Assembly (NCBI GenBank): GCA_022571365.1
Contig: JACZXZ010000020.1
Span: 1-34,192, forward strand
Length of the DNA: 34,192 nt
Direction: 5' to 3'
Source: Pseudomonadota bacterium
Lineage (GTDB): Bacteria > Pseudomonadota > Alphaproteobacteria > G022571365
The position numbers and the translations under genes are program-made. The notes beneath the pieces are model-generated. The model was not told the origin of the DNA and made no database searches. It worked only from the letters and a program-made list of their open reading frames with translations. This document shows, piece after piece, positions 261 to 34,192 of this stretch (positions within the stretch are counted from its first letter, which is position 1; the number at the start of each line of letters is the position of its first letter).

Positions 261-1979
261 ATGTTGGAAGCCCCCGCAAAGCCTCGCAAGCGCGGCCATC
301 CCGGCGCCGGCAGAAGGCGGATGGTGTCCCATCCCAAGGGACGCCAGGTCGACCCCGGGGCCCTGGCCGAAATCCAGGAGCTGCTGGGCGACCGGCCGCG
401 GCGGCGCGACCTCCTGATCGAGCATCTCCACCTGATCCAGGACAGCTATCACTGCCTTTCCGCGGCCCATCTGGCCGCGCTCGCCCACGAGATGCGTCTG
501 GCGCTGGCCGAGGTTTACGAGGTGGCCTCGTTCTACGCCCACTTCGACATCGTCAAGGAGGACGAGAGCCCGCCGCCGGCGCTCACGGTGCGGGTGTGCG
601 ACAGCCTGACCTGCGAGATGATGGGCGCCGGGCGGCTCATGAAGGAGCTGAGCCAGGCGTTCGACGGGGCGGTGCGGGTCGTCCGCGCCCCGTGCATGGG
701 CCGCTGCGACACCGCCCCGGTGGCCGAGGTCGGGCACTACCACGTGGACGGCGCGACCACATCGGGCGTGCGCGAGGCCGTCGAGGAAGGGCGGACCGAG
801 CCGGCCATCCCGGCCTATGTCTCTTTCGACGACTACCTCGAGGGCGGGGGCTACCGGTTGCTCAAGGACTGCTGCTCCGGCAAGCGCGCCATCGAGGAGG
901 TGATCGTCGCCATGGAGGCCTCGGGTCTCAAGGGACTGGGCGGCGCCGGCTTCCCGGCCGGCCGCAAATGGCGCTTCGTCCTCAAGGAGCCCAAGCCGCG
1001 GCTGGTGGCGATCAACGCCGACGAGGGCGAGCCCGGCACCTTCAAGGACCGCCATTACATGGAGACCGACCCGCACCGGATGCTGGAGGGCACGCTCATC
1101 GCGGCCCGCGCGGTCGAGGCCGAGGAGATCTATATCTACCTGCGCGACGAATATCCCGGCATCCGCCACGTCCTCGCCGCCGAGATCGCCAAGGTCGAGG
1201 CGGCGGGCCTGTGGCCGCGGGGCGCGATCCACCTGCGCCGCGGCGCCGGCGCCTATATCTGCGGCGAGGAGTCGGCGATGCTCGAGAGCATCGAGGGCAA
1301 GCGCGGCCTGCCCCGGCACCGGCCGCCCTACGTCGCCCAGGTCGGGCTGTTCGGCCGGCCGACCCTGGTGCAGAACGTGGAGACCGTCTTCTGGATCCGG
1401 GATATCGTCGAGAAGGGCGCTGATTGGTTCGCCGGCCAAGGCCGCAACGGGTGCAAGGGGTTCCGGAGCTTCTCGGTCTCGGGCCGGGTCAAGGAGCCGG
1501 GGGTCAAGCTCGCCCCCGCCGGCATCACGGCGGCCGAGCTGATCGAGGAATACTCGGGCGGCATGGCCGACGGCCACCGCTTCAAGGGCTATCTCCCGGG
1601 CGGCGCCTCGGGCGGCGTCCTGCCGGCCGCGATGGCCGACATCCCGCTCGACTTCGGCACCCTGGAGGAGCACGGCTGCTTCATCGGCTCGGCCGGCGTG
1701 GTGGTGGTGTCCGACCGGGACAACATGCGCGCGGTGGCCTTGAACCTGATGCGCTTCTTCGAGGACGAAAGCTGCGGCCAGTGCACGCCCTGCCGGGTCG
1801 GCACCGAGAAGGCGGTGAAACTCATGCAACGGCCGGTCTGGGACGAAGCGCTCTTGGGCGAACTCAGCCAGGCCATGGCCGACGCCTCGATCTGCGGCCT
1901 GGGCCAGGCCGCGCCCAACCCCTTGAAGATGGTGCTCAAACATTTCCCCGAGGATCTCACCCGGAGTCAACATGGCTGA
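261..1979 (+). CDS. fdh1B: NAD-dependent formate dehydrogenase beta subunit, NuoE-NuoF fusion
   Basis: Diaphorase subunit that passes electrons from the formate-oxidising alpha subunit to NAD+ through FMN; cytoplasmic. The first 150 or so residues are a NuoE-like thioredoxin-fold 2Fe-2S domain, with ligands visible at C113, C118, C145 and C149. The rest is NuoF-like: the glycine-rich [13 protein letters not shown] motif, [23 protein letters not shown], and 4Fe-4S ligands C505, C508, C511 and C545. I chose ATG 261 because a GAGG sits nine bases upstream; ATGs at 246 and 321 are alternatives. The product of 572 residues fits the fused beta subunit of the tungsten-containing FDH1 of Methylobacterium. 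It overlaps the alpha gene by 8 bases, so the two are surely co-translated. The fds-type enzyme keeps these domains as separate proteins, so the fusion points to the FDH1 type. Confidence 0.9.
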
Positions 1980-4737
1980 GCCCATCACCTTCACCCTCGA
2001 CGGGAAGCGAGTCGAGGCCGCGCCGGAGGAGACCATCTGGCAGGTGGCCAACCGCCTCGGCATCGAGATTCCCCATCTCTGCTACACGCCGGACCCGGGC
2101 TACCGCGCCGACGGCAACTGCCGCGCCTGCATGGTGGAGATCGAGGGCGAGCGCGTGCTCGCCGCCTCCTGCATCCGCGCGCCGGCGCCGGACATGACGG
2201 TCACGACCAACTCCGAGCGCGCCAAGGCCTCGCGCCGGATGGTCATGGAGCTCTTGATCGCCGACCAGCCGCCGCGCGCTTCGGCCCATGACCCGGGCTC
2301 CAAGATGTGGCGCTGGGCCGAGGCCATGGGCCAGACCGACAGCCGGTTCCCGGCCCGCCAGGCGACGCCGCCGGACTCGAGCCATCCGGCCATGGCCGTC
2401 AACCTGGATGCCTGCATCCACTGCACGCTCTGCGTGCGCGCCTGCCGCGAGGTCCAGGTCAACGACGTCATCGGCATGGCCGGGCGCGGCGCCGGGGCCA
2501 AGATCGTGTTCGACTTCGACGACCCCATGGGCGCCTCGACCTGCGTCGCCTGCGGCGAATGCGTGCAGGCCTGCCCGACCGGCGCGCTGATGCCGGCGAG
2601 CCTGGTCGACGAGCAAGGCGTGGGCCGCAGCGAATCGTTGCGCGAGGTCGACAGCGTCTGCCCCTATTGCGGGGTCGGCTGCCAGATCACTTACCAGATC
2701 GCGGACGACCACATCCTCGCGGTCAAGGGTCTTGACGGCCCGGCCAATCTGAACCGGCTGTGCGTCAAGGGCCGTTTCGGCTTCGACTACATCCACCACC
2801 CGCACCGGCTGACCGTGCCGCTGGTGCGCCTGGACGGCGTGGCCAAGGACGCCAACGACGACCTCGATCCGGCAAATCCGTTCACCCATTTCCGCGAGGC
2901 CACCTGGGACGAGGCGCTGGACCGCGCGGCCGAGGGCTTGAAGCGCATCCGCGACCGCGACGGCGGCCGGGCGCTCGCCGGCTTCGGCTCGGCCAAGGGC
3001 TCCAACGAGGAGGCCTATCTCGTCCAGAAGCTGGTGCGCACCGGCTTCGGCACCAACAACGTCGACCACTGCACCCGGCTGTGCCACGCCTCTTCCGTCG
3101 CGGCGCTCCTGGAGACCATCGGCTCGGCCTCGGTCACCGCGCCGTTCACCGAGTGCTCCAACTCCGACGTGATCATCGTCATCGGCGCCAACCCGACCGA
3201 GAACCACCCGGTCGCCGCGACCTTCATCAAGAACGCGGTCAAGCGGGGGGCGATGCTCATCGTCATGGACCCGCGCGGCCAGGCGTTGAAGCGTCACGCC
3301 ACCCATATGCTCGAGTTCACCTCCGGCACCGACGTGGCGCTCCTCAACGCGCTCATGAACGTCATCATCACCGAAGGGCTCTATGACAAGCAGTACGTGC
3401 AGGCCCACACCGAGGGCTTCGAGGAGCTGAAGGTCCACCTCAAGGAGTTCACCCCCGAGGCGATGGCCGAGGTCTGCGGCGTCGCGCCCGAGACCCTGCG
3501 CACCGTGGCCCGCGCCTACGGCCGCGCCGAGGCCGCCATCATCTTCTGGGGCATGGGCATCTCGCAGAGCATCCACGGCACCGACAACGCGCGCTGCCTG
3601 ATCTCACTCGCGCTCATGACCGGCCATGTCGGCCGGCCCGGCACCGGACTCCATCCCCTGCGCGGCCAGAACAACGTCCAGGGCGCCTCCGACGCCGGCC
3701 TCATCCCGATGTTCTACCCGGACTACCAGTCGGTCGAGACGGACGCCATCCGCGAGAAGTTCGAGGCCCTCTGGGGCGCCAAGATCGACCCCAAGCGGGG
3801 CCTCACCGTGGTCGAGATCATGGACGCCATCCACGACGGCGTCATCAAGGGCATGTATATCATGGGCGAGAACCCGGCCATGTCGGACCCCCATCTCCAG
3901 CACGCCCGGGAGGGCCTCGCCAGGCTCGAGCACCTGGTGGTCCAGGACATCTTCCTGACCGAGACCGCGTTCCACGCCGACGTGGTGTTGCCGGCCTCGG
4001 CCTGGCCCGAGAAGGACGGCACCGTCACCAACACCAACCGCCAGATCCAGATCGGCCGCAAGGCGCTGGAGACTCCCGGCGAGGCGCGCCAGGACTGGTG
4101 GATCATCCAGGAGATCGCGCGGCGCATCGGGCTCGACTGGGACTACGGCCACCCGCGCGAGGTGTTCGCCGAGATGAGCCGGTGCATGGAGTCGCTGACC
4201 GGCATCACCTGGGAGCGGCTCGAGCGCGAGGGCTGTGTGACCTACCCCTGCGATTCGGAGGAGGAGCCCGGCCACGACATCATTTTCGCGGACGGTTTCC
4301 CGACCCCCACCGGCCGCGGCAAGTTCGTGGCCTGCGACATCATTCCGCCCGACGAGCGCCCGGATGAGGCCTTCCCCATGATCCTGACCACCGGCCGCCA
4401 GCTCGAGCACTGGCACACCGGGGCGATCACCCGGCGCTCACACGTGCTCGACGCGCTGGAGCCCGAGGCGGTGGCCTGCCTGAGCCCGAGCGACCTCGCC
4501 CGGATGGGCGTCGCCGGCGGCGAGACCATCCGGGTGGCCACCCGGCGCGGGGTGATCGAGCTGAAGGCGCGGGTCGACTCATCCGTGCCCAACGGGGTGG
4601 TCTTCATCCCGTTCTGCTTCGCCGAGGCGGCGGCGAACTTGCTGACCAACCCGGCGCTCGACCCGGTTGGCAAGATTCCCGAGTTCAAGTTCTGCGCCGC
4701 CCGGGTCGAGAAGGTCGCGGCCGAAGCGGCGGAGTAA
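1972..4737 (+). CDS. fdh1A: Formate dehydrogenase alpha subunit, Mo/W-bis-MGD type
   Basis: Catalytic subunit that oxidises formate to CO2 at a molybdenum or tungsten bis-pterin site (often annotated fdhF). Domains in order: a 2Fe-2S ferredoxin domain (C37, C50, C53, C67), a NuoG-type His-Cys segment, two 4Fe-4S motifs (CIHCTLCVRAC near residue 148 and CVACGECVQAC near 187), the 4Fe-4S of the molybdopterin domain (CPYCGVGC from C230), then the large molybdopterin and C-terminal binding domains. The metal ligand is a normal cysteine, C371, followed by His in TRLCHAS, the place of selenocysteine in E. coli FdhF. The 921-residue length is normal for soluble NAD-linked enzymes. Start ATG 1972 overlaps the beta subunit stop. 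Family knowledge and the tungstate transporter downstream suggest tungsten, but the sequence alone cannot decide the metal. Confidence 0.95.
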   Translation: MAEPITFTLDGKRVEAAPEETIWQVANRLGIEIPHLCYTPDPGYRADGNCRACMVEIEGERVLAASCIRAPAPDMTVTTNSERAKASRRMVMELLIADQPPRASAHDPGSKMWRWAEAMGQTDSRFPARQATPPDSSHPAMAVNLDACIHCTLCVRACREVQVNDVIGMAGRGAGAKIVFDFDDPMGASTCVACGECVQACPTGALMPASLVDEQGVGRSESLREVDSVCPYCGVGCQITYQIADDHILAVKGLDGPANLNRLCVKGRFGFDYIHHPHRLTVPLVRLDGVAKDANDDLDPANPFTHFREATWDEALDRAAEGLKRIRDRDGGRALAGFGSAKGSNEEAYLVQKLVRTGFGTNNVDHCTRLCHASSVAALLETIGSASVTAPFTECSNSDVIIVIGANPTENHPVAATFIKNAVKRGAMLIVMDPRGQALKRHATHMLEFTSGTDVALLNALMNVIITEGLYDKQYVQAHTEGFEELKVHLKEFTPEAMAEVCGVAPETLRTVARAYGRAEAAIIFWGMGISQSIHGTDNARCLISLALMTGHVGRPGTGLHPLRGQNNVQGASDAGLIPMFYPDYQSVETDAIREKFEALWGAKIDPKRGLTVVEIMDAIHDGVIKGMYIMGENPAMSDPHLQHAREGLARLEHLVVQDIFLTETAFHADVVLPASAWPEKDGTVTNTNRQIQIGRKALETPGEARQDWWIIQEIARRIGLDWDYGHPREVFAEMSRCMESLTGITWERLEREGCVTYPCDSEEEPGHDIIFADGFPTPTGRGKFVACDIIPPDERPDEAFPMILTTGRQLEHWHTGAITRRSHVLDALEPEAVACLSPSDLARMGVAGGETIRVATRRGVIELKARVDSSVPNGVVFIPFCFAEAAANLLTNPALDPVGKIPEFKFCAARVEKVAAEAAE

Positions 4738-4956
4738 GCCCGATTTCGAGGGCGCAGGCCGAGCGGTTGCGCGTCGATCCCGCGATGTGCCGAGTCGTTG
4801 GCGGCAAGTCCGGCCTACGGGCGGCAGCGTGCGTCTTTGGAACGCCTCGCCATACATGGAGTCGATAGTGGCGGTGTGGGGCTCGCGTAAGCCTTTTTTC
4901 TTCGGTGGTGCGTTTTCTGGCAGCCGGATCACCAAGCCTATGGGAGGGGAAGTGTT

Positions 4957-5343
4957 ATGAAACAGTTGATGCGTGCCGTCGGCCTGGCTGTGGGCATCGC
5001 CATTGGAACCGTTTCTTCGGTAGGGGCGACCTCAATTGAGGCTTTCAACCAGTGGAAATATGACGATGACACCGTGACTCTTTCCAAATCTGAGGTGCTG
5101 AGGATCGTGTTGAGCAATGTCTATCACGCTTTCGACTGGGCGAACGCCGTAAACGAGGGCGAGGGACTGAGGCCATTATTTTGCCCGCCCGAAGATTTGA
5201 GTGTGGAGGATGAGCTCGTAATAAGGATGATCGAAGACGAGCTTCAAAACCCGTCTGCTTATGGTTTATCATTCTATCCCTCGGATACCCCGATAGAACT
5301 CATTCTCCTGCACGGCGCGAAAAATATGTTTCCCTGCAGGTGA
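4957..5343 (+). CDS. Small secreted protein resembling the Rap1a/Tai immunity family
   Basis: A 128-residue protein with an N-terminal signal peptide (hydrophobic residues 7-23, likely cut after GA near residue 24), so periplasmic. The mature part has FCPP in the middle and ends with NMFPC, spaced like the two conserved cysteines of Rap1a/Tai proteins, which protect against type VI amidase effectors. No effector gene is adjacent, so an immunity role is not supported by context, and many members are orphan periplasmic proteins. The start has a strong ribosome site, GGGAGGGG, just upstream. It is separated from the formate dehydrogenase by 219 bases, has a lower GC content than its neighbours, and is probably transcribed alone. 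Confidence 0.6.
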   Translation: MKQLMRAVGLAVGIAIGTVSSVGATSIEAFNQWKYDDDTVTLSKSEVLRIVLSNVYHAFDWANAVNEGEGLRPLFCPPEDLSVEDELVIRMIEDELQNPSAYGLSFYPSDTPIELILLHGAKNMFPCR

Positions 5344-5693
5344 AAATGAGGGGCTGATCGTATGGGGGCTACGAACGTTATGCGGACCGATGGCGCACGT
5401 CGTGGCGACGCCGGGGCCCGGAATATGTAGATTCGCTTTTAAGCGGTCGGATCGGGATTTGGTTGACACCGGCCTTGGCGAAGTCTCCCGAGGTCTTCAC
5501 GCCGGCCAGGAGCCTGGCCGACAATGCGCCGGGACCGGACGTCGAGCGGCGGGTTGGTAGTTAGTGACGCAGAAACAAAAAGTGCGTCCTTGTTCCCCCT
5601 CCCCCTGCCCCCTCCCGCCAGGGGAGGGGCCGCCGCGGGCTCATCCGTACCCTGGGCTAAGCATCACACGGGCGAACCGGACGGGAGGGTGAA
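5344..5693. other. 350-base intergenic gap with a CT-rich inverted repeat
   Basis: No supported gene. Around 5589-5630 there is a run of CCCTCCCC blocks followed by GCCAGGGGAGGGG, which can fold as a hairpin. It could end transcription of the secreted-protein gene, but there is no T-run, so I do not call a terminator. Confidence 0.4.
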
Positions 5694-12771: not shown

Positions 12772-13634
12772 TCGAGGTTCGCCGGTTGACCAGCTCTATT
12801 ACCGCCGCCCTCGCGGCGGTGGCGATGGCGATGACCATGGCCATGGCCGCCCAGGCGCAAGACTCCGCGGCACGGCAGAGGTCGATTGTGGTCGCGTCCA
12901 CGACCTCGACGGACAATTCCGGTCTGTTCGGCTACATTTTGCCTATTTTCGAGGCCGAGACCGGTATCAAGGTGCATGTTGTCGCCGTCGGCACCGGCCA
13001 GGCCCTGGAAATCGCTCGCAACGGCGACGCCGACGTGCTGCTGGTCCATCATAAGCCGTCGGAGGAGCGGTTCGTGAGCGGCGGCTTCGGCGTGGACCGC
13101 CGCGACCTCATGTACAACGATTTCGTCATCATCGGCCCCAAGGCGGACCCGGCGGGTATCGATGGCATGACCGACGTGGTGGAGGCGTTCAAGAAAATCG
13201 CCGCCGGCAGAGTGCCGTTCGCCTCGCGCGGCGACGACAGCGGCACCCACAAGGTGGAACGTCAGATTTGGCGGCAGGCCGGCATCGACGCCTCGGTCGC
13301 CTCGGGCGCCTGGTACTGGGAGACGGGCTCGGGCATGGGGGCGACCCTGAACACGGCGGTCGGCATGGACGCCTACAGCTTGAGCGACCGCGCCACATGG
13401 CTCAGTTTCAGGAACAAGGCCGAGCTGGTGATTCTGGTGCAAGGTGATAGGCGTCTCTTCAACCAGTACGGCGTGATCCGGGTGAACCCGGCCAGGCACC
13501 CCCACGTCAAGGCCGCCGCCGCCAAGGCCTTCGTGGACTGGCTGACCTCCGAGGCCGGGCAGAAGGCGATCGCCGACTTCAAGGTCGACGGCCGCCAGCT
13601 CTTCTTCCCCAACGCCAAGGGCCTCGGACCGTGA
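12768..13634 (+). CDS. tupA: Tungstate-binding periplasmic protein, first copy
   Basis: Substrate-binding protein that captures tungstate in the periplasm. It has a signal peptide with repeated Ala-Met residues (about 1-30, cut after AQA). The mature start carries the TupA motif STTSTDNSGL, followed by VGTGQALE, with SRGDDSGTH near residue 155 and NQYGVI near 240. The Ser/Thr-rich first loop and the SRGDDSGTH loop are the expected oxyanion contacts. At 288 residues its length is usual. The gene ends close to a second binding-protein gene of the same family, so the transporter may be served by two proteins. Confidence 0.88.
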   Translation: MIEVRRLTSSITAALAAVAMAMTMAMAAQAQDSAARQRSIVVASTTSTDNSGLFGYILPIFEAETGIKVHVVAVGTGQALEIARNGDADVLLVHHKPSEERFVSGGFGVDRRDLMYNDFVIIGPKADPAGIDGMTDVVEAFKKIAAGRVPFASRGDDSGTHKVERQIWRQAGIDASVASGAWYWETGSGMGATLNTAVGMDAYSLSDRATWLSFRNKAELVILVQGDRRLFNQYGVIRVNPARHPHVKAAAAKAFVDWLTSEAGQKAIADFKVDGRQLFFPNAKGLGP

Positions 13635-13699: not shown

Positions 13700-14551
13700 A
13701 TGGCGCGCTCTTTGCGGCTTCGGCGGCGCGTCGCCTTTTGGGCGGTCGCGTTCATCGCGGCGCTGTCCTCCGCGGAGGCGGGCGCGGCCGGCGAGCGCAC
13801 GTTGACTTTGGCCACCACCACGACGACCGAGAACTCGGGCCTCATGGGCCACCTGTTGCCGCTGTTCGAGGCCGGGACCGGGATCGAGGTCCGGGTCGTG
13901 CTGCACGGCACCGGCCAGGTCCTCCGGGCCGCCCGGGCCGGCGACGTCGACCTGTTCATCGCCCACGACAAGGAGGCCGAGCTCGCCTTCCTCGCCCAGG
14001 GCTACGGGATCGAGCGGCGCGACCTGATGTCCAACGACTTCGTCATCGTCGGCCCGGCGGACGATCCCGCGGGGATCAACGGCATGACCGATGCGGCCCA
14101 GGCGCTCGCCCGGATCGCCGCCTCGTCGGCAAGCCCCTTCGTCTCGCGCGGCGACGACAGCGGCACCCACCGGGCCGAGCGGCGCCTCTGGCAGGCGGCC
14201 GGCATCGATCCTTCCGCCGCCTCCGGGGAGTGGTACCTGGAAGCCGGCGCCGGGATGGGCTCGACCCTCAACATCGCCGCCGGCAGGGGCGCCTACACGC
14301 TGACCGACCGCGGCACCTGGCTCAGCTTCGGGAACCGCGGCGATCTGGTCATCCTCGCCGCCGGCGACCCGCGCCTGTTCAACCAGTACGGAATCACGCT
14401 GGTCAATCCCTCCCGCCACCCCTACGTCAAGGCCGCCGAGGCCCGCGCCTTCTTCGACTGGATCACCGGACCCGACGGCCAGCGCGCCATCGCCGCCTAC
14501 CAGATCGACGGCGAGCAGCCGTTCCACCCGAACGCGGAGGGCCGGCAATAG
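13700..14551 (+). CDS. tupA: Tungstate-binding periplasmic protein, second copy
   Basis: A paralogue of the preceding protein, with the same layout: signal peptide, ATTTTTENSGL at the mature start, LHGTGQVL, SRGDDSGTH and NQYGITLVNPSRHPYVKA. It keeps the predicted ligand loops, but the first loop is TTTT instead of STTS, so its affinity or ligand may differ. I prefer ATG 13700, which has AAGAGG about ten bases upstream. A GTG at 13631 would overlap the first copy by four bases but would add a charged tail before the signal peptide. Tandem binding proteins with one permease/ATPase pair suggest a broader or wider-range uptake system. Confidence 0.85.
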   Translation: MARSLRLRRRVAFWAVAFIAALSSAEAGAAGERTLTLATTTTTENSGLMGHLLPLFEAGTGIEVRVVLHGTGQVLRAARAGDVDLFIAHDKEAELAFLAQGYGIERRDLMSNDFVIVGPADDPAGINGMTDAAQALARIAASSASPFVSRGDDSGTHRAERRLWQAAGIDPSAASGEWYLEAGAGMGSTLNIAAGRGAYTLTDRGTWLSFGNRGDLVILAAGDPRLFNQYGITLVNPSRHPYVKAAEARAFFDWITGPDGQRAIAAYQIDGEQPFHPNAEGRQ

Positions 14552-15645: not shown

Positions 15646-15699
15646 AGAGTATGAACGGATTGGGCCGGCCGGAGAGTATGAACGGATTGGGCCGGTCGG
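15646..15699. repeat. 27-bp tandem duplication before moaA
   Basis: Two units of 27 bases, beginning AGAGTATGAACGGATTGG, differ at one base. Each carries an ATG. From the first ATG a 25-codon frame runs through both units and ends at 15728, overlapping the moaA start; a leader peptide is possible but its ribosome site is weak. Confidence 0.7.
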
Positions 15700-21197: not shown

Positions 21198-22560
21198 CCT
21201 CGCCGCCTTTCCCGCCGCTCTCCCGGCTCGCCGTCGCGCGTTGCTCGGCCAGCGCCTTGGGCAGCTCGGCGTAGAGGCAGTCGAACATCGCCTGGGGCGG
21301 TTGGGCGGGCGTCGCCTCGTAGGCCTGGACGGCGGCGTCGATGCGCGCGTCAATCTCACCGATCAAATGCTCCTCGTCATCCTTGCTCCACGCGCCGGCG
21401 TTGCCGAGGAAGGCGCGCAGGCGGGCGATCGGATCGGTGCGCCAATGGGCGCTGACCGTCTCGGCGTCGCGGTAGCGGCTGGCGTCGTCGGCGGTGGCGT
21501 GATCGGACAGCCGGTAGGTGAGGGCCTCGATCACGCTGGGACCGCCGCCGGCACGGGCCTTGTGCAAGGCTTCATCCACCGCGTGGCGCACCGCGATCAC
21601 GTCGTCGCCGTCCACCTGGGCACCGTCGATGCCGGCGGCGATGGCCTTCTGAGCCAAGGTTTGCGCCGCCGTCTGCGCGGTGCGCGGGAGCGATATCGCC
21701 CATTGATTGTTGTTGATCACGAACACCACCGGCACCCGCCACGCGCCGGCGAAGTTGAGCGCCTCGTAGAAATCGCCCTTGGAGGTCGCACCGTCGCCGA
21801 TCACGCATACGGCGGCGCGCGGCTCGCGCCTGAGCTTCATGGCGTAGGCGACGCCGACCGCATGCGGCGCTTGGCCGGCCACCGGGATACACACCGGAAA
21901 ATCCTGCCGCGGGCCGGAAAAGTCGCCGCCCCGCTCGTCGCCACCCCAGTAGATGAACAGCTCCTCCAGGGTGACGCCGCGGCAAAGTTGCGCCCCCGCC
22001 TCGCGGTACGTCGGGAATAGGACATCTTCGGGCCGCATGGCGCTGGCCAGCCCGACGCCCACCGCCTCTTGGCCAAGGGACGAGGCGAAGGTGCCGAGCC
22101 TTCCGGTGCGTTGCAACGCCACCGCCTTGGCGTCGAAGCGGCGCGTGAGCACCATGGCGCGGTACAGCGGAATCAACGCCGCCGGGTCGCGGGCGAACTC
22201 CGGCAAGGGTTGTACCGGTCGCCCGGAAGGGTCGAGGAACCGGCTATGATGAATCTCGAAGCTTGCCGCCGTGGCCGCCGTTCCGCCGCCGCCAGGTTGG
22301 CGGGACGCGCGGGCCGGTTTCACCTCGCCGCCGCCCGGCCCGCGCCAGCGCACGCCCGGGGTCTCCCCGGCGCCGATGATGAAAACGACGCCGGCGGACT
22401 CGAGCGCGCGTCGGATGGCGGCAAGATTGTTCGGATAGGGGGTGCGCGCGCCGCGTTCGAAGTCGGCCACGGTTTGCTTGGCCAGGTTCGCGGCCTTTGC
22501 CAGGTCTGCCTGGGTCATGCCCGCAAGGGCGCGGGCCGCCTTGCATATCCTTCCGTTCAA
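21190..22560 (-). CDS. 2-oxo acid dehydrogenase E1 alpha with N-terminal XRE-type HTH
   Basis: One open frame of 456 residues holds two unlike parts. Residues 5-60 are a helix-turn-helix of XRE type (GMTQADLAKAANLAKQTV, then FERGARTPY). Residues 98-456 are an E1 alpha chain starting at FEIHHSRFLDPSGRP, with the thiamine motif GDGATSKGDF at 255-264 and NNN at 283-285. The HTH part has the length of a complete small regulator (about 90 residues), so this may be a gene fusion. No ATG precedes it; TTG 22560 is preceded, five bases upstream, by GGGAGG, which lies in a 17-bp tandem array. A separate E1 alpha translated from an internal GTG is possible. It leads the E1alpha-E1beta-E2 operon. Confidence 0.85.
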   Translation of the reverse strand: MNGRICKAARALAGMTQADLAKAANLAKQTVADFERGARTPYPNNLAAIRRALESAGVVFIIGAGETPGVRWRGPGGGEVKPARASRQPGGGGTAATAASFEIHHSRFLDPSGRPVQPLPEFARDPAALIPLYRAMVLTRRFDAKAVALQRTGRLGTFASSLGQEAVGVGLASAMRPEDVLFPTYREAGAQLCRGVTLEELFIYWGGDERGGDFSGPRQDFPVCIPVAGQAPHAVGVAYAMKLRREPRAAVCVIGDGATSKGDFYEALNFAGAWRVPVVFVINNNQWAISLPRTAQTAAQTLAQKAIAAGIDGAQVDGDDVIAVRHAVDEALHKARAGGGPSVIEALTYRLSDHATADDASRYRDAETVSAHWRTDPIARLRAFLGNAGAWSKDDEEHLIGEIDARIDAAVQAYEATPAQPPQAMFDCLYAELPKALAEQRATASRESGGKGGEDA

Positions 22561-22645
22561 CCGATCCTCCCGTTCAACCCATCCTTCCGTTCAACGTATC
22601 CTCCCGTTCAATCTATCCTCCCGTTCAATCTATCCTCCCGTTCAG
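22553..22645. repeat. Tandem array, 17-bp unit, five copies plus a part
   Basis: CCGTTCAAYCTATCCTC-type units, exactly 17 bases apart, run from 22553 to 22637, followed by the first eight bases of a sixth. On the minus strand each unit reads with GGGAGG (GGAAGG in some units) followed by TTG, i.e. a ribosome site plus start-like codon. The unit nearest the E1 alpha gene supplies its start. Confidence 0.9.
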
Positions 22646-22901
22646 TTGGGCTCCCATACTGACAATCCTTGGTGTTGATTTTACCACAAATGCGACAGAT
22701 GCTAATACATAAGGTTCGTTTTATATATTGAGGTTGGTTATTAAGATCAAGGGCTATTTTGGGCTATTTCTCCCTATTTTGCCCTATTTTGCCCAACGGC
22801 CGGGGAGGGTCCGCACGCGTCGCGGAGACGCGTGAAAGGATATGAAGGCATGAGCCGGATTGCTTTTTTTTCCGACTGTGTCCGCGCCGTGAGGCGCCCC
22901 G
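22646..22901. other. AT-richer intergenic stretch with inverted repeats
   Basis: No supported gene. Around 22754-22795 there are GGGCTATTTT / CCCTATTTT repeats in alternating sense, able to form hairpins. A perfect 8-bp inverted repeat, CACGCGTC-N5-GACGCGTG, is at 22814-22834. The segment 22660-22745 is AT-rich and is the likely promoter area of the E1 alpha operon. No T-run follows either hairpin on the minus strand, so I do not call a terminator. Confidence 0.5.
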
Positions 22902-24977: not shown

Positions 24978-25129
24978 ACCGTGTCGAAACCTACCCCGCG
25001 GCGCGCACCCCGCGCAAGCCTGCCGGCGCGCCGGCGGTCGGTTCCAGAACCCCGCGCGGCGCCTATTTTTTCCTTATAGTTTGGCTAGTTTGGCTTTCCA
25101 GCGCGACATGTGGATGGAAAGGCCGTGAC

Positions 25130-25259
25130 GACGGACGGGTCCGACGGACAGCCCCGACGGACAGCCCCGGCGGACAGCCCCGACGGACAGCCCCGACGGA
25201 CAGCCCCGACGGACAGCCCTGACGGACAGCCCCGACGGACAGTCCCGGCGGACAGCTCC
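25130..25259. repeat. Tandem array, 13-bp unit, nine or ten copies
   Basis: Units close to GACGGACAGCCCC repeat every 13 bases from 25143 to 25259, with a degraded copy before. Single-base changes occur in several. The array lies between the tRNA-Leu gene and the stop of the MoCF-domain gene at 25269. Confidence 0.95.
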
Positions 25260-25268
25260 CGACGCCGC

Positions 25269-26027
25269 TCAGGTGGCCGTGTCCTCCACCGGCTTGCCGC
25301 CCAGGCTCCGGATCAGGTCCTTGAGCTCGGCCGCGGCTTGGTCGAGACGGTCGGTGTCGGTGCCGCGCACCACCAGGCTGATCCCAAACCGCCGGCTGCG
25401 GAAAAACGGGTAGCTGCCGATCTCCAGGTCGGGGTAGCGCTCCTGCAGCTCGCCCAAGCCTTGGGCGATCACCCCCTCGCCGAGAAAGGCGCTGACCGTG
25501 CGCGAGCTGATCGGCGCGCCGCCGGTGAGTTTGTACTTCACGCTTTCGAACATCGCCTGCATGACCGACGGTATGCCGGCCAAGACGAAGACGTTCTGGT
25601 ACTGGAAGCCCGGCGCCATGCTCACCGGATTTTCGATCAGGGTGGCGCCCTTGGGCATGTCGGCCATGCTGAGCCGGGCTTCGTTCAAGTCCTCGGGCTT
25701 GTAGCTTTGGCTGATGAGGGCGACCGCGTGCGGGTTGCGTTCGATCGGCACGCCGAAGGCCTTGGCGATGCACCGGGCGGTGATGTCGTCGTGGGTCGGG
25801 CCGATGCCGCCGGTGGTGAAGACGTAGTCGTAGGCCGTGCGACACTCGTTGACCGCCTTGACGATGTCCGCCTCGACGTCGGGAACGACCCGGACCTCCC
25901 GGAGCTCGAGGCCCAGCTCGTTGAGCCTGCGGCCGATATAGGCGAGGTTCGTGTCCTGGGTGCGGCCGGACAGGATCTCGTTGCCGATGATGATCAGGCA
26001 AACACTCGGAGTTTGCTTGTCCGACAT
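25269..26027 (-). CDS. MoCF-domain (CinA N-terminal-like) protein
   Basis: A 252-residue cytoplasmic protein with the pterin-binding MoCF_biosynth fold: GNEILSGRTQDTN near residue 15, TTGGIGPTHDD near 70, then the C-terminal domain of the CinA N-terminal half, containing GIPSVMQAMFES and FFRSRRFGISLVVRG. The C-terminal nicotinamide-deamidase half of CinA is missing, which is usual for this subfamily. It may bind molybdopterin or a nucleotide; the biochemical role of the family is poorly known. Start ATG 26027 is preceded by GGAGAG. It is not in operon with the cofactor genes upstream, but adds to the pterin-related content of the window. Confidence 0.8.
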   Translation of the reverse strand: MSDKQTPSVCLIIIGNEILSGRTQDTNLAYIGRRLNELGLELREVRVVPDVEADIVKAVNECRTAYDYVFTTGGIGPTHDDITARCIAKAFGVPIERNPHAVALISQSYKPEDLNEARLSMADMPKGATLIENPVSMAPGFQYQNVFVLAGIPSVMQAMFESVKYKLTGGAPISSRTVSAFLGEGVIAQGLGELQERYPDLEIGSYPFFRSRRFGISLVVRGTDTDRLDQAAAELKDLIRSLGGKPVEDTAT

Positions 26028-28910: not shown

Positions 28911-29345
28911 CTTCTAGCCCCTCCGCCGCCTTATACGGCGCAAGGAGCGGCGAAGTTTGGTAACCAGGCGCGGGAGAGCTACCTGAATCTCCTGACGCGC
29001 ACGTAGCAGGCTCTGAGAGGCTGGCTCAGGAACGAGTCCCTAGGACGCCCCAGGAGATTTCTCTCCGACATCGCGCTCGAGAATGGCGCGGTGGTCAGCG
29101 CCCATTGTCCCAACCCCGGCTCCATGTCGGGGCTCGACCAGCCCGGCTCGGAGGTCTGGTTGTCCCGGTCCCGCAACCCCGCGCGCAAGCTCAACTACAC
29201 CTGGGAGCTCTTGCGCGTCGGGGGCGGCCTCGTCGGCATCAACACCGGCCGGACAAACGGCCTCGTCGAGGAAGCGGTCCGGGCCGGCCGGATCCCCGAG
29301 CTCCGGGGTTACGAGCGGGTCCGGCGCGAGGTCCGCTACGGCCGC

Positions 29346-29384
29346 CCTGCCTTCGCCGAAGCGGAGCTTCGGCTTCGCGCAGGC
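29346..29384. repeat. Short palindromic element in sfsA
   Basis: An imperfect palindrome with inner arms CTTCGCCGAAGC and GCTTCGGCTTCGC replaces the expected family residues in sfsA and shifts the frame. It resembles the core of the larger dispersed repeats downstream. Confidence 0.6.
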
Positions 29385-29464
29385 CCGCATCGACCTATTG
29401 CTCAAGGCGCCGGGGCGGCCCACTTGTTACGTAGAGGTCAAGAACGCCTCACCTGAAACGCGCC

Positions 29465-29566
29465 CGCGCTGCCTCCGGCGAAGCCTTTCCATCCTCCGTT
29501 CCACTCTCCGCAGTGCTACGGAGGATGGAAGGACGGGAGCACTGCGGAGGACGGGCGGCGAAGCCG
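29465..29566. repeat. Dispersed palindromic repeat, copy 1, inside sfsA
   Basis: Contains perfect inverted arms TCCATCCTCCG (29488-29498) with CGGAGGATGGA (29519-29529), and CTCCGCAGTGCT (29506-29517) with AGCACTGCGGAG (29538-29549), so two overlapping stem-loops can form. Its length is a multiple of three and the sfsA frame stays open through it. Confidence 0.8.
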
Positions 29567-29879
29567 AGCCGGCCGAGTTTCCCGACGCGGTCACGGCGCG
29601 GGGCACCCGGCACCTGGTCGAGCTCGCGGATCAGGTGGCGGCCGGGACGCGGGCGATCATGGTCTATGGGGTACAGCGCGAGGATTGCGGCGGCTTCGCC
29701 ATTGCCGCCGACATCGATCCGACCTATGACGCCGCCTTCCACGACGCGCTGGCCCGCGGCGTCGAGGTCCTATGCTATGCTTGCAAAGTGAGCCTCGAGG
29801 GCATTGAATTGGACCGGCCCCTGGCGATTGAGCCGTGATTCCTCGGCCGCCGGCGGGCCGCCGCCGGCCGGGCCGGGCG

Positions 29880-29999
29880 CCCGTCCTCCGTAGCCCCCTC
29901 CGCGGTGCTACGGAGGACGGGAGCACTGCGGAGGACGGGCGGCGAAGCCCGCCTGCGGGCCAAAGCCTTCGGCGGCGAAGCCGAACTGCGGAAGGTGGA
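29880..29999. repeat. Dispersed palindromic repeat, copy 2, between sfsA and map
   Basis: Shares GTCCTCCG, GCTACGGAGGACGGGAGCA, CTGCGGAGGACGGGCGGCG and CCTTCGGCGGCGAAGCCG with the other copies. It fills most of the gap between sfsA and map. Confidence 0.8.
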
Positions 30000-30011
30000 C
30001 TGGATGAAACC

Positions 30012-31184
30012 ATGAGCCGTATGGAGGTAAAGGACCACTGGCGGGTTGAGCAGGCCCGGATCAAGATCCACGGTCCGGAGGACTTCGAGGGCATGCGGCG
30101 GGCCGGACGGCTCGCGGCCGAGACCCTTGACTTCATAACGCCCCACGTCGGGGAAGGCGTCACCACCGGCGCGCTCGACCGGCTGTGCCACGATTTCATC
30201 ACCTCCCACGGCGCCATCCCGGCGCCGCTCAACTACCGCGGCTTCCCGAAGTCCATCTGCACCTCGGTCAATCACGTGGTGTGCCACGGCATTCCGGGCG
30301 AGAAACGGCTTCAGCGCGGCGACATCGTCAATATCGACGTCACCGTGATTGCCGACGGCTGGCACGGCGATACCAGCCGCATGTTCTTCATCGGAGAGGT
30401 CGGAAGGAAAGCGCGGCGGCTGGTCGACCTGACCTATGAGGTGATGATGCGCGGCGTGCGCGTGGTCAGGTCGGGGGCGCGCGTGGGCGATATCGGCCAC
30501 GCCATCCAGAGCTATGCCGAGGAACACCGGTTTTCGGTGGTGCGCGATTTCTGCGGCCACGGCCTCGGCCGGGTGTTCCACGACGCGCCTTCGATCCTGC
30601 ACTATGGCAGTCCCGGCACGGGGCCGGTCCTCGAGGCCGGCATGTTCTTCACCGTGGAGCCGATGATCAACGCCGGGCGCTATCACGTAAAGGTGCTCGC
30701 CGACGGCTGGACGGCGGTCACCAAGGACCGCTCGCTCTCGGCCCAGTTCGAGCACTCGGTCGGAGTGACCGCCGACGGCTGCGAGATCTTCACCACCTCG
30801 CCCGCGGGCCTCGACCGCCCGCCCTATCCACCCTCCGCAGTGCCACCCTCCGATCCACCCTCCGGCAGTGCCACTCTCCGCAGTGCCACCCTCCGCAGTC
30901 CGGCTTCGCCGAAGGCTACGCCGGAGGCGGCTGCCACCCTCCGTTCCACCCTCCGCAGTGCTACGGCCCGTCCTCCGCAGTGCTACGGAGGATGGAAGGA
31001 CGGGAGCACCGCGAAGGAGGGGGCCACGGGGGATGGGCGGATAGTAGGCGTGCTCGCGCTCTCTCAACCATGCGGCCGTGGCTTTGCCTCCGCTGAAGCT
31101 CTCGCCCGGCGAAGCCTCTCGCCCGGCGAAGTCTCGGCGAAGCGGGGCGGCGAAGCGGGGTCGGCGAAAGCGTGGCTTCCATGA
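30012..31184 (+). CDS. map: Methionine aminopeptidase, type I, with long repeat-derived tail
   Basis: Removes the N-terminal methionine from new proteins. The catalytic core has the five metal ligands D109 (VNIDVT), D120 (HGDTS), H183 (FCGHGLG), E216 (FTVEPM) and E247 (QFEHS). The usual protein ends at about residue 272 (AGLDRPPY). Here the frame stays open for a further 118 residues, rich in repeated [15 protein letters not shown] and PPQCYGG, encoded by the palindromic repeat at 30826-31020 and a cggcgaagc-rich stretch after it. The frame ends with ATGA overlapping the radC start at 31181, so the tail keeps the map-radC coupling. Start ATG 30012; ATG 30021 is an alternative. Confidence 0.9.
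30826..31020. repeat. Dispersed palindromic repeat, copy 3, at the 3' end of map
   Basis: Composite copy in opposite orientation to copy 5, with CCACCCTCCGCAGT-like units, CCGGCTTCGCCGAAGGCT, then CTCCGCAGTGCTACGGAGGA. It is read in frame as part of Map. Confidence 0.8.
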
Positions 31185-31864: not shown

Positions 31865-31902
31865 GCCCAGGGCCCGGAGGCCAGGTCGCGGGCCTTGGCC
31901 TA

Positions 31903-32092
31903 CTTCGCCGAAGGCTTCCACCCTCCGCGGTACTCCCGTCCTTCCATCCTCCGTAGCAGCTGCCTCCGGCATAGCCTTCGGCGAAACCGGGCTGCGGAGG
32001 ACGGGCCGCAGCACGCGCCGTCGCCTTAGCGGCTTTGGCGCGTCGGCGACTGTGGAGGGTGGCACGGAGGATGGAAAGGCTACGAAGGCGGG
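31903..32092. repeat. Dispersed palindromic repeat, copy 4, after radC
   Basis: Holds CTTCGCCGAAGG, TTCCATCCTCCGTAGCAGC, GCCTCCGGCATAGCCTTCGGCGAAACCGGGCTGCGGAGGACGG in shared order with copy 5, and then GAGGGTGGCACGGAGGATGGAA. Confidence 0.8.
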
Positions 32093-32188
32093 CCGGGGGA
32101 GTCTTGGCGAAAAATCTCGAGGGGTAAATTTTTTGAGGGTCCCTTTCCCGGCAGCTATGTTGCGACTAAGTATTATTTCAAAATGCGG

Positions 32189-32303
32189 CCGTCCTTAAGT
32201 GGGGCATGCCGCCGTCCTTAAGTGGGGCATGCGGCCGGCCTTAAGTGGGGCATGCCGCCGGCCTTAAGTGGGGCATACCGCCGTCCTCAGTGGGGTATAC
32301 CAA
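32189..32303. repeat. Tandem array, 23-bp unit, five copies
   Basis: GCCGTCCTTAAGTGGGGCATGCC-like units begin at 32189, 32212, 32235, 32258 and 32281, with drift in the last. The inner GGCATGCC is palindromic. No gene lies in the 809-base gap 31865-32673; the rest is repeat copies 4 and 5. Confidence 0.9.
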
Positions 32304-32439
32304 AGTATAGGGGGGTATACTAAAGTATTATTCACGATAAGGCCGTTCCTGGTAAGGATATGTCTCGCGGGAATGGGCTTATTGAACAAAGTGGCAACCG
32401 AACGACCCCTGTGCGGGGAGGGAGTCGAGGGGGAGCGAA

Positions 32440-32533
32440 CCCGTCCTTCCATCCTCCGTGGCACTGCGGAGGGCGGGCCGTGGCAGCTGCCTCCGGCATA
32501 GCCTTCGGCGAAGCCGGACTGCGGAGGGTGGAA
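32440..32533. repeat. Dispersed palindromic repeat, copy 5
   Basis: Cleanest copy: CCGTCCTTCCATCCTCCGTGG, CACTGCGGAGGGCGGGCCG, GCTGCCTCCGGCATAGCCTT, CGGCGAAGCCGGACTGCGGA then GGGTGGAA. Copy 3 contains its reverse complement almost intact. Confidence 0.8.
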
Positions 32534-32673
32534 GCGGGCATTGTGCGGGTCTTCGATCCCGCGGCCGAACCTGTTTTGGGCCCTTCGGTGAGCGGGGTTG
32601 TCGGCCAGAGTCGCACGAACCGGCACCACAATGCAGAGGATGCGGCGGTTCTCGTGGGGAGGAACAAAGCAGC

Positions 32674-34192
32674 ATGAAAGCCAAGAAAACCATCAGAAAG
32701 GCGGCCGCGCGTCCCGCGCCGGCGCGGGACGCGCTCCCCGAGAGATACTTTGCCCTTCTCGAAGGCCATCTTGCCCGCCCGCGGAAGGGGACTCTGGCCG
32801 CGGCGGCCGAGCTGGGCCGGGACCTGGCCTTGGCGGGGCTGCCGCTGGAAGGAATCAGGGAGCTGCACGCGGAGGCGCTCCGCCGCCTTGACTCGGATTT
32901 CGAGGATATGAGCCCGTCGGCCTTTGCCGAACGGACCGCGGCGCCGTTGATGGAACTGCTGATGGCCTATGGCTCGGCCTCGCCCGAGCAATTGGACCAA
33001 GCCGGGCGGACCGAGGAGGCGCTGCGCCAGAGCGAAGGCCACTACCGCGAGCTGTTCGAGTTGTCGCCGATCGGAATCTGGGAACAAGACTACTCCGGCG
33101 CCAAGCGCATCATCGACCGCTTGCGCGGACAAGGGGTGCGCGATTTCCGGCGCTATTTCCGCGAGCACCCGAAAGCGCTCCGCCAAGCGGTCGAGGCCAT
33201 CAAGGAGATCGGTGTCAACCAGGCCCTCCTCGACATCTATCGGGCGCCCAACCTGGACGACTTCCTGCGAACTGTTGCAAGTCCCGTCAGAATGGAGAAG
33301 TGGGGCGGCTTTTACGAGAAAGAGCTGGCCGCCTTGGCGGCGGGCGAAAGCCGCGTCGTACTGGAGGAAACGGAGAAGGCGCTCGACGGTTCGGACATCG
33401 TGACCCGAACCGTCACCCGCATCGGGGAGGCCTACAAGGACAGCTGGGCGCGAGTCGCTTCCACCATCGAGGACATCACCCAGCGCAGGCGGGCCGAGGA
33501 GGCGCTGCGCCAGAGCGAGGGGCGCTTCCGAAGCCTGGCCGCCAATTTGCCAGGCGTCGTGTTTCAGCGGAGACTGACCTCCGATGGCCGGCTCGTCTAT
33601 ACCTATGTCAGTCCGGGCATGCGTGAACTTTACGGCGTCGAGCCGGAAAAGGTGATCGCTGACTCATCGGCCTTTCTCCAAGTCCTCCCAGCCGAGGAGC
33701 AGGGCCGGTTCCTGGCTGCTTTAAAGCACTCGGCCCGGACGCTTTCGCCCATGGACCTGGAACTCCGCGTGGTTTCGGCCGACGGAGGGACGCAATGGCA
33801 GCGCACGATCTCGCGTCCCTTCCGCCGGGAGAGCGGCGAGGTGGTTTGGGACGGCGTGGCTATCGACATCACCGAGCAGAAGCGGGCCGAGGAGGCGCTG
33901 CGCCAGAGCGAGGCGCGCTTTCGCGACCTGTTCGAGCAGTCGCCGATCGGAATCTGGGAAGAAGATTACTCCGCCGTCAAGCGCATCATCGACCGCTTGC
34001 GCGAGGAAGGGGTGCGCGATTTCCGGCGGCACTTCCGCGAGCACCCGGAGGTGATTCGCCAGATAGCCAAAGCCATCAAGGTCATCGATGTCAACCAAGC
34101 CCTCCTCGACCTCTATCGGGTACCCGATAAAGAGACCTTCGTGCAATGGGATGAAAATCCCGCCAGCACCGATTCATGGATAAGCTTTTACG
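32674..34192 (+). CDS. Multi-PAS sensory protein, 3' end beyond the window
   Basis: An open frame of 506 codons to the window edge. Residues 20-105 resemble the RsbU/RsbR-type N-terminal domain (RYFALLEGHLARPRKGTLAAAAELGRD, shown in part by the ELGRD and GIRELHAEALRRL segments). Three PAS-like units follow, each introduced by AEEALRQSE: residues about 110-270, 275-410 and 411 onward. The first and third are close copies, each starting FEL/EQSPIGIWE, containing KRIIDRLR, RDFRR and FREHP, then VNQALLD; the middle is a different PAS fold with VSPGMRELYGVEPEKV. An output domain (histidine kinase, cyclase or phosphatase) should lie beyond 34192. ATG 32674 follows GGGGAGG at a somewhat long spacing. 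Confidence 0.85.
   Translation, partial: MKAKKTIRKAAARPAPARDALPERYFALLEGHLARPRKGTLAAAAELGRDLALAGLPLEGIRELHAEALRRLDSDFEDMSPSAFAERTAAPLMELLMAYGSASPEQLDQAGRTEEALRQSEGHYRELFELSPIGIWEQDYSGAKRIIDRLRGQGVRDFRRYFREHPKALRQAVEAIKEIGVNQALLDIYRAPNLDDFLRTVASPVRMEKWGGFYEKELAALAAGESRVVLEETEKALDGSDIVTRTVTRIGEAYKDSWARVASTIEDITQRRRAEEALRQSEGRFRSLAANLPGVVFQRRLTSDGRLVYTYVSPGMRELYGVEPEKVIADSSAFLQVLPAEEQGRFLAALKHSARTLSPMDLELRVVSADGGTQWQRTISRPFRRESGEVVWDGVAIDITEQKRAEEALRQSEARFRDLFEQSPIGIWEEDYSAVKRIIDRLREEGVRDFRRHFREHPEVIRQIAKAIKVIDVNQALLDLYRVPDKETFVQWDENPASTDSWISFY

Follow-up and report, generated by a model that had tools for sequence, protein, structure and literature searches.

The window investigated here, i.e., the whole 34,192-nt stretch of DNA, lies in contig C48 of a 2.31-Mb assembly (G000; 93% complete, 116 contigs). 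Between 29 and 32 kb of the window, the genes sfsA, map and radC form a row of three, with clusters of repeats between them. The reading frames of sfsA were mapped against 21 relatives, none of which is closer than the class level. The features of this region are as follows:

29004 to 29006, forward strand: TAG stop codon in the SfsA frame, 5' of the remnant
29046 to 29345, forward strand: sfsA remnant part 1, frame 0, RPRRFLSDI...RREVRYGR, SfsA_N (Pfam, E 9e-18)
29346 to 29383, forward strand: palindrome 1, in place of the conserved N-S codons, net +34 nt, frame 0 to 1
29383 to 29445, forward strand: sfsA remnant part 2, frame 1, ARIDLLLKAPGRPTCYVEVKN, aligned with class relatives
29446 to 29449, forward strand: +1 indel, 4 nt versus one codon in relatives, frame 1 to 2
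29450 to 29461, forward strand: HLKR motif of SfsA, frame 2
29463 to 29566, forward strand: compound repeat insertion ('copy 1'), net about +98 nt, frame 2 to 1
29500 to 29537, forward strand: inner 38-nt unit (30-mer plus 8 nt), nested in the outer unit
29572 to 29838, forward strand: sfsA remnant part 3, frame 1, AEFPDAV...LAIEP, stop codon 29836–29838, SfsA (Pfam, E 2.8e-31)
29870 to 30005, no strand: repeat cluster in the gap between sfsA and map
30012 to 31184, forward strand: map (methionine aminopeptidase), homology to the R. prowazekii-type MAP (3mx6) ending at ~30827
30811 to 31180, no strand: repeat cluster forming the extended 3' end of map
31895 to 32100, no strand: repeat cluster 3' of radC
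32430 to 32545, no strand: additional repeat cluster

SfsA is recognisable from about position 29046, and the start at 29007 given in the initial annotation is arbitrary. Within the SfsA frame, no ATG, GTG or TTG codon occurs ahead of 29091, which already lies within the conserved domain. The start codon and the N-terminal ~14 residues are missing, and nothing matches the residues preceding RYKRFL in the relatives. Identities of remnant part 1 to class relatives as determined by tblastn mostly ranged from 41 to 60%.

Palindromic elements had been proposed for this interval and were found at 29346–29383 and about 29463–29566. The earlier of the two shifts the frame, as had been predicted: between YG[KR] and RID, this sfsA contains 40 nt versus two residues in relatives, corresponding to the net gain of 34 nt. 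Furthermore, the GC-rich repeat block termed copy 1 is indeed located between the CYVEVKN and FPDAV motifs; however, its description as an in-frame insertion does not hold. At the VEVKN-HLKR junction, the distance from AAC to CAC is 4 nt instead of the canonical 3, placing HLKR one base off frame (H[LM][KRSA]R was matched at the HLKR position in 0.07% of shuffles). From HLKR to EFPDA, 113 nt were counted versus ~12–15 canonically, and the resulting net gain of about 98 nt, equivalent to 2 mod 3, restores the frame. The +1 indel and the +98 block add up to exactly 33 codons, and the same frame is read at VEVKN and FPDAV. The loop between these motifs comprises 44 residues, compared to 10–11 in most of the 21 class relatives and a maximum of 24.

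The SfsA_N and SfsA RE domains were both found, but not within one frame, and the start codon is gone, so that the locus lacks the organization of an intact gene. Four lesions mark sfsA as a pseudogene: the lost start, the frameshift at palindrome 1, the +1 indel and the ~98-nt block. Taken by itself, the +1 indel could stem from misassembly, and the remaining lesions are independent of it; a search of G388 for another assembly of the locus found none. With both sfsA insertions out of frame and no start codon left, this gene does not combine a frame-keeping and a frame-breaking outcome, as had been suggested. In this genome, sfsA is present as a single copy, and the family is absent from 15 of the 41 genomes searched; the gene is therefore dispensable.

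The inserted repeats are nested, mosaic, REP-like palindromes, whose family units are the 30-mer TCCACCCTCCGCAGTGCTACGGAGGACGGG and a 42-nt 'CCTGCC...GGCAGG' hairpin. The block at 29463–29566 is compound: the outer unit is split into halves (29487–29499 and 29538–29555) by the inner unit, and partial units occur on both flanks. As a DNA fold, the hairpin at 29463–29570 surpassed 200 of 200 shuffles (z = -3.0). Palindrome 1 represents 38 nt of the 42-nt hairpin also present in polA and, taken alone, folds modestly better than shuffles (z = -1.9). Inspection by eye of the flanks of 30-mer copies revealed no evident target-site duplication of the kind associated with MITEs; at the nested site in polA, at most an ambiguous 2-nt GA was seen. 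An openness of the 30-mer in all six frames was considered as a special trait and rejected: one reverse frame contains a stop codon, and six open frames also occur in 29% of shuffled 30-mers.

The repeats exceed chance expectation: genome-wide searches with the 20-mer core, allowing up to three mismatches, yielded 12 places versus none for a reversed-pattern control. Whole or partial copies of this family reside on at least 13 contigs, several of them at contig ends, and most of the copies among the loci examined are intergenic. One 30-mer-like copy (L075, contig C20 of G000, 2183–2210) supplies the C-terminal residues of a reading frame for a trypsin-like protease. No match to a Y1_Tnp/RAYT transposase was obtained by a PF01797 profile search of the 93%-complete genome, with controls positive in 5, and an Rfam scan of the window returned a tRNA as its only match. 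The window also contains separate, short tandem arrays unrelated to the palindromes, at 25129–25284, 22529–22661, 32183–32297 and 15646–15699, with units of 13, 17, 23 and 27 nt. Two 300-nt copies (33006–33305 and 33882–34181; 78% identical) are located at the contig end. Moreover, two adjacent genes share 73% identical DNA between 13215–13514 and 14135–14434 and appear to be a tandemly duplicated gene for a substrate-binding protein.

Elsewhere in the genome, members of the same family interrupt genes without disturbing their frame. In polA (contig C92; L077, 1461–1533), palindrome 1 carrying the 30-nt unit inside it adds 24 amino acids in frame to an otherwise intact, open 961-aa frame. The respective segment comprises 26 aa here versus about 2 in nearly every relative and follows SSDKDLMQLV, a site that is a short turn in relatives (Taq polymerase was also aligned). 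Palindrome 1 in sfsA and its counterpart in polA thus correspond to an empty and an occupied site, differing by exactly 30 nt. Likewise, RNase HII, encoded by rnhB (contig C45; L076, 2037–2076), possesses 30 residues versus 7 in solved homologues, i.e., about 23 extra, and a palindrome falls within this gap in frame. Regarding map, the protein aligns to the last residue of 3mx6, and 118 further codons then read through repeats; this extension (30827–31184) overlaps the start of radC. Tolerated in-frame insertions and destructive ones accordingly coexist in this genome, the former in polA and rnhB and the latter in sfsA. The proposal of both outcomes holds at this level, not within sfsA itself.

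Outside this genome, a search of the GTDB genome collection with the 20-mer core yielded 11 stretches, versus about 0.5 chance matches expected from the collection size and far fewer for the 30-mer. In 384 other Alphaproteobacteria, no occurrence of the core was observed with up to one mismatch. One of the 11 stretches (L089; JACZYA010000057.1, from an Acidobacteria bin) was dropped as a cross-phylum copy, its contig matching contig C109 of the present genome: positions 1849–5349 are 87–99% identical overall and 98–99% identical over more than 2 kb. Based on this similarity, L089 is probably a misbinned, near-identical contig of the source species. The other ten stretches originate from eight MAGs titled Planctomycetota, Verrucomicrobia, Proteobacteria, delta proteobacterium and Fibrobacteres, and mostly share the 30-mer near-verbatim. 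With respect to composition, the Planctomycetota contigs and two Verrucomicrobia contigs fit their own bins and not this genome; only these are clearly placed, the remaining bins being less clear in part because short contigs were masked.

Within the Verrucomicrobia stretch L094, a MutS-like gene harbors an exact 10-residue in-frame insertion derived from the 30-mer. This gene was compared with plasmid-borne MutS-like homologues from Caballeronia, Klebsiella and Rhodococcus, as chromosomal MutS homologues of the same order were too distant. In L090, the identical reading frame of the 30-mer is found close to the beginning of a glycoside hydrolase family 3 gene. Neither the core nor the 30-mer had a copy in viral contigs, phages or plasmids, and the element sequence was not found in the relevant literature. 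The 30-nt unit could enter coding genes because its length is a multiple of three and it is stop-free in five of six frames. It is conceivable, though somewhat doubtful, that the unit is a horizontally mobile, non-autonomous hairpin that crosses phyla and enters genes as a near-constant peptide in an RPE-like manner; such a peptide may correspond to the 30-mer read in forward orientation. The near-identical 30-mer in several phyla is the most interesting point of this study.

Very probably, the region 29046–29838 is an sfsA pseudogene that arose from repeated insertion of mosaic REP-like palindromes combined with ordinary decay, the latter comprising the loss of the start, the +1 indel and a ragged junction. 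Both kinds of element, the 30-mer unit and the 42-nt hairpin, would be non-autonomous and would have spread around the genome, often into one another. If an insertion falls in a loop and lengthens the gene by a multiple of three, the host would retain that gene, as in polA and rnhB; in the dispensable sfsA, out-of-frame or rearranged copies would persist because the gene can be lost. Movement may involve hairpins of single-stranded DNA as intermediates and a transposase that is provided in trans or has since been lost, and the insertions may be neutral.

It is highly improbable that sfsA is functional, with copy 1 being a genuine RPE-like in-frame insertion and the upstream frameshift an assembly error. 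An open frame of 251 aa, the equal frame at VEVKN and FPDAV and conserved residues on both sides, reaching 52–60% identity, would fit such a gene, but the HLKR motif has left the frame, the junction at the palindrome is 34 nt longer than in relatives, and neither the N-terminus nor a start is present, so that several independent errors would have to be assumed. A related interpretation, in which the frame was broken by the ~98-nt block and then restored by selection of the +1 indel as a compensatory change, in a gene still under selection for some time after the insertion, is unlikely: the sum of exactly 33 codons speaks for it, yet a match of this kind has a chance of one in three, and the loss of the upstream frame and of the start implies no present function. 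Moreover, relatives at the class level do not give the order of events.

Regarding the repeats themselves, they could be non-mobile products of local slippage or recombination in GC-rich sequence. The mosaic family with its many overlapping units and clusters would be compatible with this origin, and the further tandem arrays of the window point to active slippage. However, identical units on 13 or more contigs, the exact 30-nt pair of empty and occupied sites, and copies of the 30-mer at unrelated sites of other phyla, among them the exact 10-codon insertion in the MutS-like gene, make slippage very unlikely.

What appeared to be a clean in-frame insertion is hence corrected to an ordinary pseudogene. 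Furthermore, a single genome tolerates one palindrome family in frame within replication genes while the same family destroys a dispensable gene, and such a selection pattern has been proposed for RPEs. Should the spread of the 30-mer across phyla hold, it would represent a short, sequence-defined element whose movement between distant bacteria and missing transposase are directly searchable.

BIMEs (bacterial interspersed mosaic elements) are mosaics of several short palindromic units lying adjacent to one another. The elements described here resemble them in their mosaic combinations and differ, going by the description of BIMEs, in that the units nest within each other. REPINs mobilised by RAYT (IS200/IS605-related) are likewise comparable regarding the hairpin and the lack of a clear target duplication at the 30-mer; however, the Y1 transposase flanked by repeats that characterizes such systems was not found in this genome by the profile search.

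The initial annotation had referred to Rickettsia palindromic elements as precedent. The comparison is apt insofar as mobile-looking, in-frame palindromes occur in coding genes of an alphaproteobacterium, and the frame is kept upon insertion into conserved genes in polA and rnhB. In contrast to the RPE pattern, sfsA was broken and not kept, and the host is GC-rich; the likeness concerns behaviour. Moreover, the precedent is wider than Rickettsia, since REPs tagged GTAG or CGTC occur in alphaproteobacteria, Planctomycetes and Verrucomicrobia, some of them inside coding genes, many of which function in replication or repair, including DNA polymerase I (PMC3733652). These REPs are palindromes of 20–40 nt that form dimers and clusters, mostly at gene 3' ends, and the RPEs of Rickettsia conorii were described as CGTC-ended by Di Nocera and colleagues (PMC3733652).

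The family analyzed here shares general REP features, namely a short palindrome and many dispersed copies that are mostly intergenic among the loci examined. The GTAG superfamily is defined by a terminal, unpaired GTAG beside the stem-loop (PMC3733652), whereas the GTAG in the reverse complement of the 30-mer is central in the palindrome. The CGTC superfamily features a terminal CGTC, an 8–9 bp stem that opens with A-T pairs, a loop of 4–5 nt and a CCA tail, and includes families without a dedicated transposase (PMC3733652). In the 30-mer, CGTC is located two bases from the end, the stem begins with C-T-C-C-G and not with A-T pairs, and that strand carries no CCA tail. Because they behave like REPs but lack the terminal tags, the elements are filed as an untagged REP-like family, belonging neither to the GTAG/CGTC REPs nor to the RPEs. 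Intragenic REPs have already been published; new are this family and its spread across phyla.
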